Positions 7,104-23,090 of a DNA stretch of 23,090 nucleotides are shown piece by piece. The stretch is from a virus, in the IMG/VR virus record IMGVR_UViG_3300037010_000522, positions 1 to 23,090 of that record, one strand, 5' to 3'. The position numbers and the translations under genes are program-made. Below the pieces are notes generated by a model, which saw nothing but the letters and a program-made list of their open reading frames with translations, had not been told where the DNA came from and did no database searches. Position 1 is the stretch's first letter; every line of letters starts with the position of its first letter.

Positions 7104-7140
7104 TGCATATGGGCACGGTGCCCACACAAGGAGACCGGCA

Positions 7141-7389
7141 ATGAGCCACGACTTGATCGCCCGCAACTCGAAGTCTAGAGTTCGCGGGCCTGTGTTCTTT
7201 GTCGGTATTGCCAAGCCCACGAACGGGCACGGTGGTTCTGATGAAGGTGCCAGGAACATCTATAGGATGGGCCGGGTCTATGGAACCATCCTTTACGCAG
7301 AGGAAGTGTTCTTCCTTCCGCTTACAACGAAACCCAGCATCACGCCATGCGACTGTGCAGATTGCAGGAACGCGGTGGCCCATGTCTGA
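7141..7389 (+). CDS. Hypothetical protein
   Basis: An 82-residue protein (MSHDLIARNSKSRVRGPVFF...) with a C-terminal CDCADC cluster that may bind metal. AAGGAG at 7128-7133 fixes the start at ATG 7141; the in-frame ATG at 7075 coincides with the promoter. It overlaps the next gene by eight bases. No family is recognised. Confidence 0.7.
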   Translation: MSHDLIARNSKSRVRGPVFFVGIAKPTNGHGGSDEGARNIYRMGRVYGTILYAEEVFFLPLTTKPSITPCDCADCRNAVAHV

Positions 7390-7756
7390 GACATGTGTTC
7401 TTTACACGACTAAGGTGTGCCACGAGCGAGTCAAGGTCGGCAGTATCCTTTGTAGCACGATGCGTGGCGCACTCCTGAAAGTAATTGAGGTCCGCACTAA
7501 TGGGGGCCTCCTGGCCGAGACCTACGGAGGATTCCTTCACGGGCGCATCTCCCCCGCAGTCAAACCACGCCGGACGGCACTGATCCAGCCTTATTCTGAC
7601 AGTGCCAAGATCTACAATGTCCCGAGTGGTGATGGCAAGGTGCTCAGCGGAGAAATGTTCTGCTGCTACCGCCATGTCACCTTAGTTCCAGTGGCAGAAG
7701 TCACACGCACCTTCCTCGACGATGGTTCTGTCCTCATCAACAGCAGTATTCTATAG
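7382..7756 (+). CDS. Hypothetical protein
   Basis: A 124-residue protein (MSETCVLYTTKVCHERVKVG...), mostly beta-like with hydrophobic strands separated by Gly-rich turns, and several Cys. ATG 7382 lies inside the end of the preceding gene, so translation is coupled. The open frame extends upstream to 7199, but that part overlaps a real gene and has no ribosome binding site. No family is recognised. Confidence 0.65.
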   Translation: MSETCVLYTTKVCHERVKVGSILCSTMRGALLKVIEVRTNGGLLAETYGGFLHGRISPAVKPRRTALIQPYSDSAKIYNVPSGDGKVLSGEMFCCYRHVTLVPVAEVTRTFLDDGSVLINSSIL

Positions 7757-7765
7757 GAGCCCAGT

Positions 7766-7954
7766 GTGCATATCCACGAAAGCATCACCCCCGAACGAGT
7801 TGCAGAAATGGCTAAAAGAGACGACTGCGAAGGCATCTGCATCGCCTGTGGTGAGGATGCCTGCGGGGTTGAACCCGACGCGCGGAACTACGAGTGCGAG
7901 TGCTGCGGGGCGCACAAGGTGTTCGGTGCAGAAGAACTTCTTTTCATTGTTTGA
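7766..7954 (+). CDS. Small zinc-ribbon phage protein
   Basis: A 62-residue protein with CIACGEDACGVEPDARNYEC followed by ECCG. The two CxxC-type pairs separated by GVEPDAR look like a zinc ribbon. From general knowledge this pattern is very common among small phage proteins of unknown function. AGGAG at 7754-7758 supports GTG 7766. Confidence 0.75.
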   Translation: MHIHESITPERVAEMAKRDDCEGICIACGEDACGVEPDARNYECECCGAHKVFGAEELLFIV

Positions 7955-7963
7955 GGGGCGTAA

Positions 7964-8161
7964 ATGGATAAGATCTTCCACATCCACGGGTGGGCGTCAG
8001 ACGGAAAGCCGCTTATTCGGCATGGGACTGAGATCATGGGCGCGGCTCTCGGTAAGAAAGACCGAGCAACTCTGGCTTCGCTTAAAGTTGGGGAATCCTT
8101 CACCCCTTTGTTCACAACCCTGTCAGGTAAGATCGCCTACCGTGTGGAGCGTGTCCAGTGA
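7964..8161 (+). CDS. Hypothetical protein
   Basis: A 65-residue protein (MDKIFHIHGWASDGKPLIRH...), apparently a small beta-rich domain ending KIAYRVERVQ. GAGGGG upstream supports ATG 7964. Its stop overlaps the GTG start of the RadC-like gene, so the two are probably coupled. No family is recognised. Confidence 0.65.
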   Translation: MDKIFHIHGWASDGKPLIRHGTEIMGAALGKKDRATLASLKVGESFTPLFTTLSGKIAYRVERVQ

Positions 8162-9369: not shown

Positions 9370-11415
9370 ATGAGTAATAAGCTCCAAACCAGTGACGATG
9401 TCATGGTCGAAATGCTTGACAAAATTAGAAAATCAGGCCTAACTGAAAAGCACGCCGCTCGGCTTGGGTTCGACACATATACGGCCCAGGAGGCTCTAAC
9501 CTCCAACCTGCCCTTTCCCAAGGCTGGGTTCAAGATCCCTTACTTTGACTTAGCTGGCAACGAAACAAAATTCTGGCGCTTCCGTTATCTTGAGTCTACC
9601 CTAAACGCTTGGGACAAAGCGACTGGTAGGAAGGAAATGCGCTACTGTCAGCCAAAAGGCTCGTTGAACGAGTTATACCTGCCCCCTCTAGTTAACTGGG
9701 CCAAGATAGCTGGAGATACAACGGTCGCAGTTATCATTACGGAGGGGGAATTGAAGGCAGCCTGCGCCTGCGCCGCTGGGTTCCCCACCATCGGGCTAGG
9801 AGGAGTCTGGTGCTTCAGGTCGTCTGCAAATCACATGCACCTGCTTCCGATGTTTGATGAATTCAAATGGGAGCAGCGAACAGTCTTCATCTGCTATGAC
9901 TCCGACGCCGCTGTGAATACGAAAGTTATGGCCGCAGAGAACGCCCTGGCCCGCGAACTAACCCTGCTAGGAGCCGTGCCCTTCGTCGTTCGCCTGCCCC
10001 AAACATCCCCGCCTCTTAAAACGGGGCTTGATGATTATTTAGTTGAGGAAGGGGTGGAGGCACTGAAGGTCGCGCTGCAAGAAGGTGTGGAATGGCGGGC
10101 CGCTAAAGAACTATTCAAACTCAACGAAGAAGTGGTGTATGTCAGAGATCCTGGTGTCATCCTTCGGCTTGATAACATGCAGAAAATGACACCCATGAGT
10201 TTCACTAACCATGCCTACGCGAACCGCCGGTATTTTGAGGAAGTAATCGGCGCCAAAGGCGTGAAGCTAGTAGAACGAAGCGCCCCAGCAGAATGGATGA
10301 AGTGGCCCCTTCGCGCAGAAGTTGCCCGCTGTGTCTACAAACCGGGTGAAGACCACTTCTACAAAGGGGCGATGAATACATGGCCCGGATGGGGCTGCTA
10401 CCCCGCTGAGGGATCTGTCCAGCCGTGGGAAGAGCTCATGGAATATATGTTCAATGTTGAAGACATCCCAGAACGCGCCAAAGATCGCAAGTGGTTTGAG
10501 CAATGGCTGGCATATCCACTTCAACATCCAGGAGAAAAGCTCTATACCGCCGCAGTTTTCTGGGGAACAAGGCATGGCACAGGCAAGTCACTGATCGGCT
10601 ATTCCATGATCAAGATTTATGGGAAAAATGGAACTGAGATTGGCGACCGTGACCTTCATGCTTCGTTCAATGAGTGTATGGAAAATAAGCAGTTCATCAT
10701 GGGAGAGGAGATAACGGGCGGGGATAAGCGGGCCGTGGCTGATCACATGAAGTCAATGATCACCCAAAAGCAGCTCAGATTGAATGTCAAATACATCCCA
10801 AGCTATACGATTGACGATTGCATCAATTATTACTTCACAAGTAACCACCCCGACGCATTCTTCCTAGAGGATACGGATCGTCGGTTTTTTATTCACGAAA
10901 TAAATGCGCCGCCGAAGCCGTTCAAGTTCTATTCCGACTACATGACTTGGCTGAACGGCAGCGGTGCCAACGCATTGTTTGACTATCTATTGAAGATCGA
11001 CTGCTCAGACTTCAATCCGCAGGGCGCCGCCCCCATGACAGTGTCTAAGCAAGAAATGATTGATAATGGCAAGAGTGATATTGCCGCATGGGTCGCGCTA
11101 CTTAAAGATCAGCCCGATTATGTGACGCGACTTGGCGGTGTGACCTTGAAACATCGTCTTTGGTCCGCCACAGAACTTCATTCAATATACGATAAGGATG
11201 GGCGCGGCAAGACGACAGTGGGAGGCATGGCGCGAGAATTGGCGAGGGCGGGTATTGAGAAAGCTGCGGAAGGGGCGAATATTTTCACTGACCATGGTAT
11301 GCAGAAACTGTGGATTATCAGGCCGATTCCCCACACGGTATCCCCCGCTGAGTTGTCTGAAATGTATCTCACAGAACGGGGGATTGCGTGCAAGAAAACT
11401 ACTACAAAGTTCTAG
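9370..11415 (+). CDS. Phage primase-helicase (TOPRIM-like + SF3 ATPase)
   Basis: A 681-residue replication protein. The N-terminal part (about 100-240) is a DUF3854-type TOPRIM-like domain with ITEGE (Glu125) and CYDSDA (Asp177, Asp179), which would bind metal for primer synthesis. The C-terminal part (about 360-560) is a D5/DUF5906-type superfamily 3 helicase ATPase: Walker A GTRHGTGKS (Lys406), a Walker B-like FIMGEE, and a sensor region with YYFTSNHPDAF. It probably unwinds DNA and primes synthesis for the polymerase at 15103. No N-terminal zinc-binding domain is visible. The start is ATG 9370 after a weak GGGG. The end overlaps the DnaJ-like gene by 28 bases. Confidence 0.85.
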   Translation: MSNKLQTSDDVMVEMLDKIRKSGLTEKHAARLGFDTYTAQEALTSNLPFPKAGFKIPYFDLAGNETKFWRFRYLESTLNAWDKATGRKEMRYCQPKGSLNELYLPPLVNWAKIAGDTTVAVIITEGELKAACACAAGFPTIGLGGVWCFRSSANHMHLLPMFDEFKWEQRTVFICYDSDAAVNTKVMAAENALARELTLLGAVPFVVRLPQTSPPLKTGLDDYLVEEGVEALKVALQEGVEWRAAKELFKLNEEVVYVRDPGVILRLDNMQKMTPMSFTNHAYANRRYFEEVIGAKGVKLVERSAPAEWMKWPLRAEVARCVYKPGEDHFYKGAMNTWPGWGCYPAEGSVQPWEELMEYMFNVEDIPERAKDRKWFEQWLAYPLQHPGEKLYTAAVFWGTRHGTGKSLIGYSMIKIYGKNGTEIGDRDLHASFNECMENKQFIMGEEITGGDKRAVADHMKSMITQKQLRLNVKYIPSYTIDDCINYYFTSNHPDAFFLEDTDRRFFIHEINAPPKPFKFYSDYMTWLNGSGANALFDYLLKIDCSDFNPQGAAPMTVSKQEMIDNGKSDIAAWVALLKDQPDYVTRLGGVTLKHRLWSATELHSIYDKDGRGKTTVGGMARELARAGIEKAAEGANIFTDHGMQKLWIIRPIPHTVSPAELSEMYLTERGIACKKTTTKF

Positions 11416-14863: not shown

Positions 14864-15106
14864 GTGATAAATCCAGACCACCTCGTCGAGGACCGCCAAA
14901 GCATCCACAACTGGTTGATAGTCCTTAGGACATGGCGAACGCTCACAGCTTTCTTGAGTAAGACCACAGACGAGGAAGCCTGCTGGTCTCTTCTTAAGTT
15001 TGAGAAAGAACAGCAGAACCGGCCACTCTTCGTAAAGCGCATCTACGGCAAGGCCTCAATCCTACGGGCTCGCAATGAGCGCGCCAAACTGAAAGGCACC
15101 AAGTGA
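14864..15106 (+). CDS. Hypothetical helical protein
   Basis: An 80-residue, helical, Trp- and Lys-containing protein (MINPDHLVEDRQSIHNWLIV...) with a basic end. GGAGGG at 14851-14856 supports GTG 14864. Its stop overlaps the GTG of the DNA polymerase gene, so it is coupled to it. A polymerase accessory role is possible by position only. Confidence 0.65.
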   Translation: MINPDHLVEDRQSIHNWLIVLRTWRTLTAFLSKTTDEEACWSLLKFEKEQQNRPLFVKRIYGKASILRARNERAKLKGTK

Positions 15107-16962
15107 GTATTCCTAACCCATGGGTCCTTGACTTTGAGACTGAGGCCATTGGGGGCAGGCCCGACTATCCACCTGTTCCTGTGAGCTTCAGCATCCAGAG
15201 CCCAAGAGACGAAGCTCAACGGTTCTACGCATGGGGCCACCCCACGGAGAACAACTGCACCTATGATGAGGCTGTCGCTGTTCTGCATGAGTGCTGGAAT
15301 AGCGGAGAGCCAATTCTGTTCCACAACATGAAGTTTGATATAGACGTCGCGCAGCATCATATGGGGTGCGGAGACATTGAATGGCAGCGCGTTCACGACA
15401 CTATGTTCCTTCTATTCCTGATGTATCCCCATGCTCGGTTTCTGTCGTTGAAGCCAAGCGCGGAGAAACTTCTGAATATGCCCCCTGATGAACAGGAAGC
15501 TGTTCGTGATTGGCTAGTCGCTAACGGGGTGTGCAGCGACACGAAGGGGTGGGGAGCGTTCATCTCCAAGGCACCAGGATCCCTTGTTGGAACTTATGCC
15601 GAGGGCGACGTTATCAGGACCAAACTTCTTTTCGAGCTGCTCTACCCGCAGGTGGTGGAAGCTGGAATGCTTCCAGCCTATGATCGAGAACGTGAGCTCA
15701 TGTTCGTTCTTCTACAGAATGAACGCGAGGGTGTCCGAGTTGATCTGGAACTTCTGAAGAAAGACCTGGACATTTACGAAGCTGCTATGGAAAAAGCAGA
15801 GTCTTGGATCCGAGAGCGCTTGGGTGTTCCTGAACTGAACTTGGACGCTGCGGCGCAAGTAGCCAACGCCCTAGACGCGAGTGGTGTAGTCACCCAGTGG
15901 CATCTCACGAAGACTGGCAAGCGGTCCACCGCCAAAGATAAGATGACCCCCGACATGTTCACAGACGAGCGGGTTAGTCAGGCGCTGGGCTATCGGAGCC
16001 GTCTCTCCACACTACTCGGCACCTTCATGCGAAATTGGCATGATGTTGCCGTGAGGTCAAACGGAATCATCTACACTAACTGGAGTCAGGTTCGCCAGCC
16101 CGGTTCCGGAGACGGAAGCAAGGGGGCACGAACTGGCCGTATGTCAAGCAGCCCTCCGTTCATGAACATTGCCAAAGATCTGGAAGAAAAGAGTGACGGG
16201 TATGTCCACCCTGAGTTCTTGGATGTTCCAGAACTTCCAGCCATTCGCAAATACATTCTTCCTGACCATCCAGGCGATCTCATTCTACACCGAGATTATA
16301 GCCAGCAGGAGCTACGAGTGCTGGCGCATATGGAAGATGGCGCCTTCATGGCCGCGTATATCGCGGACCCATCCATGGATGTTCATGAATATGTCAGGCA
16401 AGAAATCAAGCGCCTGACGGGGGTTGAATACACCCGGTCGCAGGTGAAGCAGGTGAACTTTGGTATCATCTATGGCATGGGCTATGGAGCTTTGGCCAAG
16501 AAACTTGACAGCACAGTAGATGTCGCCAAGGACATCAAAACCGCCCAGCGAAGGGTTCTTCCGGGGGTGGCGGCTTTGGAGCGATCAATTAAGAAAATCG
16601 GCGGTTCCGGGGGTTTCATCACTACCTGGGGCGGTCGGCGCTACTTCGTGGAGGAGCCCAAGATCGTAAAGGGCGCGGCAATGTCGTTTGAGTATAAGCT
16701 GCTCAACTACCTTATTCAAGGTAGCGCAGCGGATATCACAAAGCAGGCGCTGATCAACTACCACAAAATGAAAAAGCACGGCCGATTCCTTATCACGGTT
16801 CATGACGAAATCAACATCTCCGTGCCTAAAGAATACGCCGATGAGGAAATGGAGATTCTCAAGAAAGCCATGAATTCCGTGCCACTTGATGTTCCCCTGC
16901 TATCTGATGGTAAAATCGGACCTAACTGGGGAAATATGAAGAAGTTCGTGGACAAAGAATAG
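15103..16962 (+). CDS. DNA polymerase, family A, with 3'-5' exonuclease
   Basis: A 619-residue replicative polymerase. The N-terminal proofreading domain carries DFETE (Asp10, Glu12), HNMKFDID near residue 75 and YAEGD near residue 190 (exo I-III). The polymerase domain has motif A DYSQQELR (Asp398), motif B R...K...NFGIIYG (Arg445, Lys449, Phe453) and motif C HDE (567-569). Phe at the position equivalent to E. coli Pol I 762 implies good discrimination against dideoxynucleotides. There is no 5'-3' exonuclease domain, as in T7-type enzymes. The start is GTG 15103, overlapping the preceding stop. It would copy the phage genome and, if the modification cassette works as proposed, incorporate a modified dUTP. 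Confidence 0.95.
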   Translation: MSIPNPWVLDFETEAIGGRPDYPPVPVSFSIQSPRDEAQRFYAWGHPTENNCTYDEAVAVLHECWNSGEPILFHNMKFDIDVAQHHMGCGDIEWQRVHDTMFLLFLMYPHARFLSLKPSAEKLLNMPPDEQEAVRDWLVANGVCSDTKGWGAFISKAPGSLVGTYAEGDVIRTKLLFELLYPQVVEAGMLPAYDRERELMFVLLQNEREGVRVDLELLKKDLDIYEAAMEKAESWIRERLGVPELNLDAAAQVANALDASGVVTQWHLTKTGKRSTAKDKMTPDMFTDERVSQALGYRSRLSTLLGTFMRNWHDVAVRSNGIIYTNWSQVRQPGSGDGSKGARTGRMSSSPPFMNIAKDLEEKSDGYVHPEFLDVPELPAIRKYILPDHPGDLILHRDYSQQELRVLAHMEDGAFMAAYIADPSMDVHEYVRQEIKRLTGVEYTRSQVKQVNFGIIYGMGYGALAKKLDSTVDVAKDIKTAQRRVLPGVAALERSIKKIGGSGGFITTWGGRRYFVEEPKIVKGAAMSFEYKLLNYLIQGSAADITKQALINYHKMKKHGRFLITVHDEINISVPKEYADEEMEILKKAMNSVPLDVPLLSDGKIGPNWGNMKKFVDKE

Positions 16963-20427: not shown

Positions 20428-21384
20428 ATGAAAACTGTGGTGTTCAGTTTCAATCCTCCTACACCCGACGGCTCGTTGGCAAACGCGCGAACTGCGACTT
20501 TTATTGCTGACACGCTCGATGTCCCACTTATTTGTGATAAGAATATCGCAGATGTTGAGGCTGATGTTCTCATTCTTGTGGCGGGTGTTTTCATGTATTG
20601 TCGTTGTCTGCCCGAAGTCGGCGCCGCTGTAGAAAAAGCCAAGCGCGTCGTCTGGGCACAGAATGACTACACCATCAAGCCCCCGCTTGCGGACGGCATT
20701 GCCGAAAGCCCGTTTAGAAAAGCATTCAGGAACCGTAGGTCTGCTGGTCTGCCCGATGTTGATTTCTGGACCACAATGAAGAAGGCCTCAGAAAAGACGC
20801 CCTTCAGTGCGTGGGTGAACTGGAATCAGATGGCGTATGAAACCCCCATCAGTGACGAAGCTTTTGAGCTGAATCGTGAGCACGCCATTGAATCATTCAT
20901 CTACTACGGGGCCGATAGGCTGGGGCGCCGAGACTACTTTGACTGGTATTTCAATGGACAGAAGGCGCCATTGACTATCAGTTCCTTTAGTAAGTCAATG
21001 TCTCGCTACGAAGATGATGCCGATATCATTCCTGCATTCAAGCGAACTGAGTTCTTTGACCGATTGGGCCAGTATTCCGCCGGGCTATACCTGGAGGACA
21101 AACGCTCGCACGCCGAGTTCACCAGCCCTGCCACGCGGTTCTATGAGATGCTCCGCGTGGGGGTTGCCATGTTCTTTCAGCCCCAGGCGGTTCCCATGCT
21201 GGCGAAGGCTGGGTTCGATGTTGCGCCCTTTGTTGCCACGCCGGGGCAGCTACCAGACGCGCTCAGCAGGGCGCCAGAGGTGGCTCGCCAGCAACGGGCA
21301 CTGTGGGGTGGTAGGCCCTACCTTCAGCACCTAAAGGAACAGCTTTTGCGAGAGCACGCACGCATCCAGGAGGGTGTCAAATGA
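20428..21384 (+). CDS. Possible glycosyltransferase-like enzyme, first gene of modification cassette
   Basis: A 318-residue protein with a Rossmann-like N-terminus (KTVVFSFNPPTPDG ... DVLILVAGVFMY ... RVVWAQND). A C-terminal segment (LGQYSAGLYLEDKRSHAEFT and TRFYEMLRVGVAMFF) resembles the nucleotide-sugar site of GT-B glycosyltransferases, where an acidic residue is followed by 'RfyE.l..Gv'. This assignment rests on pattern only. If correct, it could attach a sugar to a hydroxymethylated base, as known for phages that glycosylate DNA. It is translationally coupled (ATGA) to the next gene, a modification-family protein. GGAG precedes ATG 20428. Confidence 0.55.
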   Translation: MKTVVFSFNPPTPDGSLANARTATFIADTLDVPLICDKNIADVEADVLILVAGVFMYCRCLPEVGAAVEKAKRVVWAQNDYTIKPPLADGIAESPFRKAFRNRRSAGLPDVDFWTTMKKASEKTPFSAWVNWNQMAYETPISDEAFELNREHAIESFIYYGADRLGRRDYFDWYFNGQKAPLTISSFSKSMSRYEDDADIIPAFKRTEFFDRLGQYSAGLYLEDKRSHAEFTSPATRFYEMLRVGVAMFFQPQAVPMLAKAGFDVAPFVATPGQLPDALSRAPEVARQQRALWGGRPYLQHLKEQLLREHARIQEGVK

Positions 21385-22229
21385 GTAATCCTATGCGCGT
21401 AGACGACCTGTGCTATTGGATCAAAGAGCGCCATTCCATCTATACCAAGAAGCAGGCTGGGGAGCCAAAGCCTTGGACCCAGGACCCAATCTTGCAAAGT
21501 TATCGGTTCTGCAATGTCTATCGAAATCTCGATACCGTGACAGAATGGATCCACGCAAACTGGATGAACCGCAGCGATCCGAATATGTTCGTGGCTATGG
21601 CTATCGCACGGTTCGTGAACTGGCCAGACACCCTTGAAGAAATGGGGTTTCCGTTGCCGTGGGATCCCGAGCATTTTGTATCGGTCCTACATGATCGCCG
21701 GCGCAGGAACGAGAAGGTTTACAGTGGGGCCTACATCGTATCCACTAACGGCCACGCCATGGATAAGGCCGAGTATCTCGCCAACTTCGTCATCCAGCCC
21801 ATCTGGGACAACCGCATTGACGTTCGCCCAAAGAAGGGTGACACTCTTGAGTCCTTCTACCAGCGGCTTGTCAAGTTCGATGGGCTGGGCAGCTTCATGG
21901 CTGGGCAGGTGATAGCTGATCTGAAGTATGACAAGTTCAGCCCACTTTACGAAGCAAGCGATGAATTCAGTTGGGCGACCAGCGGGCCTGGGAGTCGGCG
22001 AGGCATGAACCGTGTCATCCAGCGGCCTCCTGCAGCGCCTATCACTGAGCGGGTGTGGAGGGAGAACCTGACCATCCTTCACCAAGCCGTTCAGGACAGG
22101 CTCGCCCCTTTGGGTATGCCGCCAATCTGCGCCCAGGACCTCCAGAACGCATTATGTGAGTTCGACAAATTCGAGCGCGTCCGGCTTGGGGAGGGCACCC
22201 CGCGCTCCGGATACCCTGGGAGGGGCTGA
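21381..22229 (+). CDS. aGPT-PPlase / 5-hmdU kinase helical-domain family protein
   Basis: A 282-residue protein. Characteristic stretches are WIKERHSIYTKKQAGEPKPW, then DPILQSYRFCNVYRNLDTVT, GLGSFMAGQVIADL, GPGSRRGMNR, and LCEFDKFERVRLGEG near the C-terminus. From memory these match the family called alpha-glutamyl/putrescinyl thymine pyrophosphorylase or 5-hmdU DNA kinase helical domain, found in phages that hypermodify thymidine. Family members act on 5-hydroxymethyl-uracil in DNA; the exact reaction of this clade is uncertain. No P-loop is visible, so it would not be a kinase on its own. AGGAGG at 21368-21373 and ATGA coupling support the start. Confidence 0.75.
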   Translation: MSNPMRVDDLCYWIKERHSIYTKKQAGEPKPWTQDPILQSYRFCNVYRNLDTVTEWIHANWMNRSDPNMFVAMAIARFVNWPDTLEEMGFPLPWDPEHFVSVLHDRRRRNEKVYSGAYIVSTNGHAMDKAEYLANFVIQPIWDNRIDVRPKKGDTLESFYQRLVKFDGLGSFMAGQVIADLKYDKFSPLYEASDEFSWATSGPGSRRGMNRVIQRPPAAPITERVWRENLTILHQAVQDRLAPLGMPPICAQDLQNALCEFDKFERVRLGEGTPRSGYPGRG

Positions 22230-23090
22230 TGGAATTCCGTGCAAGAAACCTCACGCAGGTGATGGCCGCGTGCCTTCCTAAACTTGTGGAGGGAACCGCA
22301 GAGTCCTCGCGTAACGGGCCGGTGATCTTAATTGACGAACCGGTGATCCTCACTTACGAGAAACCTTGCGAGCGAGTGCTGTTCTCACCCACACGCGACG
22401 CTAACCCATTCTTTCATCTAATGGAAGCTCTATGGATGCTGGCGGGGCACGACGACGTTGAGTTTCCCACCAGGTTCAATTCAAAGTTCAGTCAGTTCTC
22501 AGATAATGGTGTGACCTTCAATGGAGCCTACGGTTTCAGATGGCGCAAGTATTTTGATACAGATCAGATTGAACTGGCTGTCAAAGAACTAACGGAAAAC
22601 CCAGGTTCAAGGCGCGTGGTAATCGGGATGTGGGATCCGATGTGCGATCTTGGCTCCACGAGCAAAGACATTCCGTGCAACACGCACATCTATCTGAGCA
22701 TCCGGGAGAACTCTGGGCTGCTAGATATGACAGTGTGCAACCGAAGCAACGACGCAATCTGGGGGGCCTTCGGCGCGAACGCTGTTCACATGAGTATTCT
22801 TCAAGAATATCTGGCTGCATCAATTGGCGTGGGCGTTGGGCGCTACCGTCAAGTGACAAACAATCTCCACTTCTACTCGAATACCTTCAGCGTGGAGAAA
22901 CTATCGCGCATTGCGGATGAGTGTGGATCAGACACGGCGTATTCACTAGGGCGTGTCCGTCCCTACCCGCTGATCTCCATTTCCCCAGGCTGCTGGATGA
23001 CTGAGCTCCGAGAGTTTCTGGCCAACCCTTCAATGAGCCCTGGTCATTACCACGACGACTTCTTTGCCAGAGTAGCATACCCCATGTTCT
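22229..23090 (+). CDS. Thymidylate synthase homologue, probable dUMP hydroxymethylase (partial)
   Basis: The first 287 residues are present; the gene runs off the window end. The fold signature is clear: SRRVVIGMWDP (phosphate-binding Arg pair), DIPCNTHIYLSIR with catalytic Cys150, NRSNDAIWGAFGANAVHMS, and NNLHFY. Asn184 in GAFGAN corresponds to the residue that selects dUMP; dCMP hydroxymethylases carry Asp there. The NRSND.IWG.FGANAVHMS form is typical of phage enzymes that make hydroxymethyl-pyrimidines, so 5-hydroxymethyl-dUMP is the likely product. Ordinary dTMP synthesis is the alternative. Its ATG overlaps the preceding stop (TGATG), so all three cassette genes are coupled. Confidence 0.85.
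   Translation, partial: MEFRARNLTQVMAACLPKLVEGTAESSRNGPVILIDEPVILTYEKPCERVLFSPTRDANPFFHLMEALWMLAGHDDVEFPTRFNSKFSQFSDNGVTFNGAYGFRWRKYFDTDQIELAVKELTENPGSRRVVIGMWDPMCDLGSTSKDIPCNTHIYLSIRENSGLLDMTVCNRSNDAIWGAFGANAVHMSILQEYLAASIGVGVGRYRQVTNNLHFYSNTFSVEKLSRIADECGSDTAYSLGRVRPYPLISISPGCWMTELREFLANPSMSPGHYHDDFFARVAYPMF

Follow-up and report, generated by a model that had tools for sequence, protein, structure and literature searches.

A kinase-free virus gene cassette predicted to glycosylate 5-hydroxymethyldeoxyuridine in DNA

Known thymidine hypermodification proceeds by (pyro)phosphorylation of 5-hydroxymethyl-dU (5-hmdU) in DNA, followed by the transfer of an amine or an amino acid (PMC6449724, PMC5977210, PMC9476957). 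The corresponding cassettes of the phages M6, ViI and PhiW-14 carry, close together, genes for a thymidylate synthase (TS)-family dUMP hydroxymethylase, a HMUDK_hel protein (HEL) and an HD/YfbR phosphohydrolase (HD), and in this they resemble the cassette described here, which was found on a window (the whole stretch of DNA analysed, 23,090 nucleotides of an IMG/VR virus fragment). In contrast to theirs, the window cassette is without a P-loop 5-hmdU kinase, an amino-acid:DNA transferase (ADDT), and PLP and radical-SAM enzymes, and has a GT-B glycosyltransferase (P1) instead. Phage T4 beta-GT (PF09198) is comparable to P1 in its GT-B fold, its catalytic Asp and the layout of its UDP-binding Arg and Glu residues, and it adjoins a TS-family hydroxymethylase (gene 42; NC_000866), just as the P1 unit includes the TS-family protein P3; however, P1 falls outside PF09198, its predicted acceptor is 5-hmdU and not 5-hmC, and T4 is without HEL. 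DNA glycosyltransferases of the TAGT type (PF20691) are found in the slot of P1, near HEL and TS, in other phages, but they have a GT-A fold and are unrelated to P1 in sequence (PMC13216743). A 2026 survey counted 288 phages with a solitary TAGT of unknown context (PMC13216743), some of which may be accounted for by HEL-TAGT-TS cassettes. Kinetoplastid base J and the glucosylated dihydroxypentyluracil of Bacillus phage SP-15 are likewise 5-substituted uracils of DNA that bear a sugar, and neither is described with HEL. The synthesis of base J proceeds through hydroxylation of T within DNA. SP-15 relies on synthases of the flavin type (Thy1) together with a teichoic-acid-like cluster (PMC5977210). 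Our literature search found no description of HEL together with a DNA glycosyltransferase, although glycosyltransferases in pathway literature outside the search are not excluded, and none of P1's GT-B family, the main pathway paper lying outside its coverage.

We consider it probable that the window cassette represents a branch of thymidine hypermodification that works by glycosylation, without the kinase, and leads to glycosyl-5-hmdU, which would be base-J-like if the sugar is beta-glucose. This reading, under which thymidine hypermodification in phages would have a second branch that adds sugars, is built on the observed genes, their coupling and their families, the predicted fold and conserved active-site layout of P1, the absence of the kinase route, and the recurrence of the cassette.

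The original prediction had proposed three coupled genes at this position, and the unit is indeed composed of P1 (20428..21384, + strand, 318 aa, ATG start), which is GT-B DNA glycosyltransferase-like by fold and invariant residues, P2 (21381..22229, + strand, 282 aa), which encodes HEL, a member of the HMUDK_hel / aGPT-PPlase1 family (PF18723), and P3 (22229..23090, + strand), encoding a TS-family protein predicted to be a dUMP hydroxymethylase. The three ORFs run in the same direction, P1 and P2 overlapping by 4 bases (ATGA), with AGGAGG preceding P2, and P2 and P3 by 1 base (TGATG). P3 is open at the window end, with 287 of its 330 aa inside, and is present in full length on contig L003 (6006-6998). 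As seen in a related complete genome, the unit terminates with an HD/YfbR-like phosphohydrolase located just past the window (L003:6940-7494), after which come structural genes on the opposite strand. Synonymous changes predominate among the close relatives of the three genes, with a dN/dS of 0.04-0.07 for P1 and 0.12-0.25 for P2 (window versus relatives) and of 0.13-0.20 for P3 (L003 as reference versus relatives); P1, P2 and P3 are thus under purifying selection, far beyond chance.

Contig G001 (60,490 bp) is 99.8% identical to the window, and its end is bridged to its start over approximately 247 bp by four contigs (L003, L005, L007 and L012), so that it is a complete genome map of approximately 60.2 kb. 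Among the 47 mismatches between the window and G001, 44 are located in the last 640 bases (22449-23090), which are 96.5% identical to L007 versus 93.8% to G001; this clustering suggests a mixture of strains or recombination where the window contig ends. Elsewhere, the window encodes a primase-helicase with DUF3854 and DUF5906 domains (9370-11415) and a family A DNA polymerase (15103-16962).

P1 has no sequence match in Pfam, PHROG or PDB, and a 38-member profile likewise remained without a family; PF13524 (Glyco_trans_1_2) was weakly matched by 5 of the 38 members. No match was obtained between P1, with its GT-B fold, and the GT-A TAGT family PF20691, or between P1 and PF09198 up to an E-value of 10 (T4 control: 1e-99), and a pattern-limited scan of genome contigs yielded no bacterial copy. 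The AlphaFold2 model of P1, computed with an alignment (A3) of 38 diverse homologues, has a pLDDT of 94.2 and a pTM of 0.90 and displays a GT-B fold, for which ranks 1 to 5 of the Foldseek search against the PDB are all T4 DNA beta-GT (E 1.8e-9 to 1.8e-8), the best being 1c3j (E 1.8e-9, TMq 0.65, probability 1.00). The T4 alpha-GT bound to HMU DNA (1y8z) matches at E 2e-7 and outranks the other GT-B enzymes except Gtf3, Gtf3-type protein glycosyltransferases also fitting the fold (TMq 0.57). Identity to T4 beta-GT in the fold match is approximately 10%, and hhalign detects only a weak similarity in sequence (E 2e-4 over 62 columns, probability 45%).

In T4 beta-GT, D100 is the catalytic base, while R191, R195, R269 and E272 bind UDP. 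Ten positions of P1 are invariant in 38/38 homologues (D80, N133, Y159, G161, R164, R167, D224, S233, R237 and E240), and among them D80, R164, R167, R237 and E240 correspond to T4 D100, R191, R195, R269 and E272, respectively, within the motif pairs WAQND80/YLFTD100, YYGADR164LGR167/YGGSFR191SGQR195 and R237FYE240/R269VWE272. R237 and E240 were paired by hhalign and the others through comparison of the motifs by eye, using the T4 sequence from NC_000866. Since the fold is T4-like and the invariant residues match, P1 is, as far as the model can be trusted, a GT-B transferase having the catalytic layout of T4 beta-GT but standing outside PF09198. What had been advanced as only a possible glycosyltransferase has thereby gained a confident GT-B model, with T4 DNA glucosyltransferases as the best solved matches, and invariant catalytic and nucleotide-binding residues, and an unannotated DNA glycosyltransferase family gains a name and an active site. 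P1 is predicted to transfer a sugar to 5-hmdU in DNA; both the sugar and the acceptor are inferred.

GT-B protein and small-molecule transferases (Gtf3, SenB and BshA) also match the P1 model, and there is no direct assay of P1, which leaves room for a nucleotide-level or non-DNA glycosyltransferase that would have, for example, 5-hm-dUMP, a protein, or a lipid or surface sugar of the host as its acceptor, and would merely travel with the hydroxymethylase genes. We regard this as unlikely, considering that T4 DNA beta-GT leads the matches and T4 alpha-GT follows closely, that the D100-like Asp is invariant, that P1 is tightly coupled with HEL and TS genes across unrelated phages, and that it is exclusive of the DNA amino-acid transferase.

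The lack of a P-loop kinase, which the original prediction had noted for the window, holds for the complete, near-identical genome as well. No Walker-A 5-hmdU kinase was found in the window or in this whole related genome, whose P-loop proteins are only a primase-helicase, an SNF2-type helicase and a terminase. Phage M6, which has the kinase, ADDT and HEL, was used as a positive control for all three; PF18748 (P-loop 5-hmdU DNA kinase) gave no match in the window or G001 (M6 control: E 1e-19), and there was none for PF18724 (amino-acid:DNA transferase; M6 control: E 2e-48) or tailoring enzymes, the kinase and ADDT Pfam models matching M6 but not G000 or G001. The PF18748 model also missed a divergent P-loop protein of L015/G002, which a custom kinase HMM caught; this HMM found nothing in G001. 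By HMMs and tblastn, the M6 kinase, the amino-acid:DNA transferase, and PLP, radical-SAM and SPASM proteins were all absent from G001. The genes past position 23090 had been pointed to as a possible location of PLP or radical-SAM enzymes; this was not borne out, as the HD phosphohydrolase is found there, and neither L003 nor G001 has kinase, ADDT, Nmad5, PLP or radical-SAM genes past the window.

Scans of IMG/VR recovered 57 P1 loci and 80 HEL loci, many of them cut by contig ends; the P1 loci were dereplicated to 41 clusters. Dozens of virus contigs and two cultured E. coli phages carry P1 homologues next to HEL and TS, and HEL is present in 32/41 P1 clusters, TS in 33/41, HD in 25/41 and the amino-acid transferase in 0/41. 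A P-loop kinase (M6-gp54-like) was found in 18/41, often with a SPASM radical-SAM enzyme; P1 is therefore not strictly exclusive of the kinase, and the proposal that P1 always replaces it was rejected on this count. The prevailing architectures are kinase-less, either GT-HEL-TS-HD as in the window or HEL-GT-TS and HEL-GT-SPASM-TS in other contigs, or have the order HEL-GT-SPASM-KIN-TS-HD. The latter, consisting of HEL, a P1-type GT, a SPASM radical-SAM protein, a P-loop kinase, TS and HD, recurs in L041, L042, L046, L047 and L053-L058 and suggests a radical-SAM-tailored glycosyl or other base.

At HEL loci without P1, the neighbour of HEL is often a TAGT (PF20691) and more rarely a GT4-like protein, the TAGT occupying the place of P1 in related kinase-less cassettes. 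In all, 16 dereplicated virus clusters have TAGT genes next to HMUDK_hel and TS or close to them, and most of these clusters lack a P-loop kinase (L101:3080-3865, L107:7096-7950, L126:7220-8014, L143:7183-7980, L161:7187-7993, and others). GT4-like proteins form a third glycosyltransferase family in the neighbourhood of HMUDK_hel, being immediately upstream in L130 (6730-8001) and near HEL in L110 (5673-7004), L145 (5675-7033), L151 (11993-13279) and L152 (11383-12672). In the loci surveyed, HEL accompanies DNA glycosyltransferases of two or three unrelated kinds and the kinase with roughly equal frequency.

When glycosyltransferases and kinases were counted in the HEL-recruited loci only (54 clusters), the kinase was present in 2/27 clusters with any DNA glycosyltransferase versus 19/27 without (p 3e-6), and ADDT in 0 versus 6 (p 0.02). 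Among these loci, glycosyltransferase and kinase are alternatives, but this is only a tendency after tree correction: the minimum number of changes of presence on the HEL tree was 15 for the glycosyltransferase and 20 for the kinase, and of 8 independent pairs 5.9 were opposite and 1.0 alike (median p 0.125, not significant). The exclusion is also limited to the loci closest to the HEL of the window.

These data bear on the possibility that modification still runs through the kinase route: a kinase that is distant or supplied by the host would phosphorylate 5-hmdU in DNA, with the GT-like protein coupling a sugar or other group by displacement of pyrophosphate. HEL is named after the kinase, the M6-gp54-like P-loop protein is found in those 18 of the 41 P1 clusters, and PhiW-14 uses a pyrophosphoryl intermediate (PMC5977210); nevertheless, the complete genome has neither a Walker-A kinase nor a match to the kinase HMMs, which do match the M6 control, and kinase-less GT cassettes recur, and we consider this route quite improbable.

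P3 matches Thymidylat_synt (Pfam, E 7.5e-19) and phrog_5131 (E 4e-101), and is 49% identical to the TS of M6/MP1412, annotated also as deoxyuridylate hydroxymethyltransferase; the DNA of phage M6 has 5-hmdU-derived bases (PMC6449724). Among solved structures, the MilA CMP hydroxymethylases come nearest to P3 (E 2e-21), with true thymidylate synthases further off (E 8e-9). Cys150 is at the position of the nucleophile, and Asn184, read beforehand as the dUMP-type residue of a TS homologue, is confirmed and occupies the position of an Asp in MilA. The best reading of P3, judged from its sequence, is a dUMP hydroxymethylase, its activity being inferred. That P3 would instead hydroxymethylate dCMP, with P1 glycosylating 5-hmC as in T4, has in its favour the coupling in T4 of beta-GT with a TS-family dCMP hydroxymethylase, the CMP hydroxymethylases closest to P3 in the PDB and the HEL-less P1 homologue of the T4-like phage S13, but is hardly tenable given an Asn where cytosine enzymes have Asp, the identity to the enzyme of a known 5-hmdU phage, and the presence of HEL and HD, which belong to the M6-type set.

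P2 matches PF18723 (HMUDK_hel) with an E-value of 2.2e-44 and a score of 152 bits (cut-off 25), and also corresponds to phrog_2396; PF18723 is likewise above cut-off in M6, LuckyBarnes, EP_H11 and IME392. The protein starting at 21381 had been proposed to be of an aGPT-PPlase / 5-hmdU-kinase-helical family, and the profile match removes the objection that it might belong to an unrelated one; the kinase-associated helical family stands, while a pyrophosphorylase has not been demonstrated. The AlphaFold2 model of HEL (pLDDT 96) has no significant Foldseek match, its top matches being a series of HhH DNA glycosylases together with the queuine-salvage enzyme DUF2419 at non-significant E-values of 0.3-1, and base presentation by HEL is for this reason an inference. 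P2 is predicted to act alongside the modifying enzyme, either by binding DNA or by presenting the base. More tentatively, and with some doubt on our part, HEL could be a general 5-hmdU-presenting module and not a kinase subunit, with the P-loop kinase, P1-type GT-B, TAGT-type GT-A and GT4-like glycosyltransferases as interchangeable partners, its pairing with P1 leading to 5-hmdU:A glycosylated, base-J-like DNA. The kinase-free cassette in itself sets HMUDK_hel, a widespread protein, apart from the kinase behind its name. In L096, on a virus contig of 463 kb where no TS lies close by, HMUDK_hel has a 4-base overlap with an inosine-uridine nucleoside hydrolase family protein (7105-8004).

In the proposed glycosylation branch, P3 would convert dUMP to 5-hydroxymethyl-dUMP, the HD/YfbR-like enzyme would probably remove competing nucleotides such as dTMP, and the 5-hydroxymethyl nucleotide would be incorporated into the phage DNA. 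P1 would then move a sugar from a nucleotide-sugar straight onto the 5-hydroxymethyl group in DNA, giving 5-(glycosyloxymethyl)uracil, while HEL may bind DNA or present the 5-hmdU base to P1, and would presumably give equal service to the P-loop kinase in M6-type phages. No sugar-nucleotide genes are among the genes examined, so the sugar donor would be that of the host. A published result on T4 beta-GT fits this scheme: the enzyme glucosylates single-stranded 5-hmU, and in duplexes it accepts 5-hmU paired with G but not with A (PMC4111573). A phage glycosylating 5-hmdU:A would need an adapted enzyme or partner, as which HEL could serve. The suggestion of a sugar-containing base is thus supported by a T4-like GT-B P1 and the missing kinase, but DNA as the acceptor, the sugar, the beta linkage, the role of HEL and protection from restriction are inferred, and there are no chemistry data. 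Possible new enzymes to label 5-hmdU in DNA may be found here.

The prediction is directly testable in the cultured phages EP_H11, IME392 and LuckyBarnes. The order TS-TAGT-TAGT-HEL was found in Brevibacterium phage LuckyBarnes, which has no match to PF18748 or PF18724. Cronobacter phage S13, which is T4-like, encodes a P1 homologue (gp057, L029:14635-15486) near uvsW and without HEL, and the P1 family may also serve 5-hmC phages. E. coli phage EP_H11 has homologues of P1 and HEL, a P-loop AAA_28 protein, TS and HD, and vB_EcoM_IME392, with its HEL match, has genes of sizes and order matching those of EP_H11. Just upstream of the P1 homologue, EP_H11 encodes a de-N-acetylase of the PIG-L type along with a GT-A-like protein that has a DDD motif (L028:9643-11295), which would make GlcNAc addition followed by deacetylation on DNA possible in this phage.
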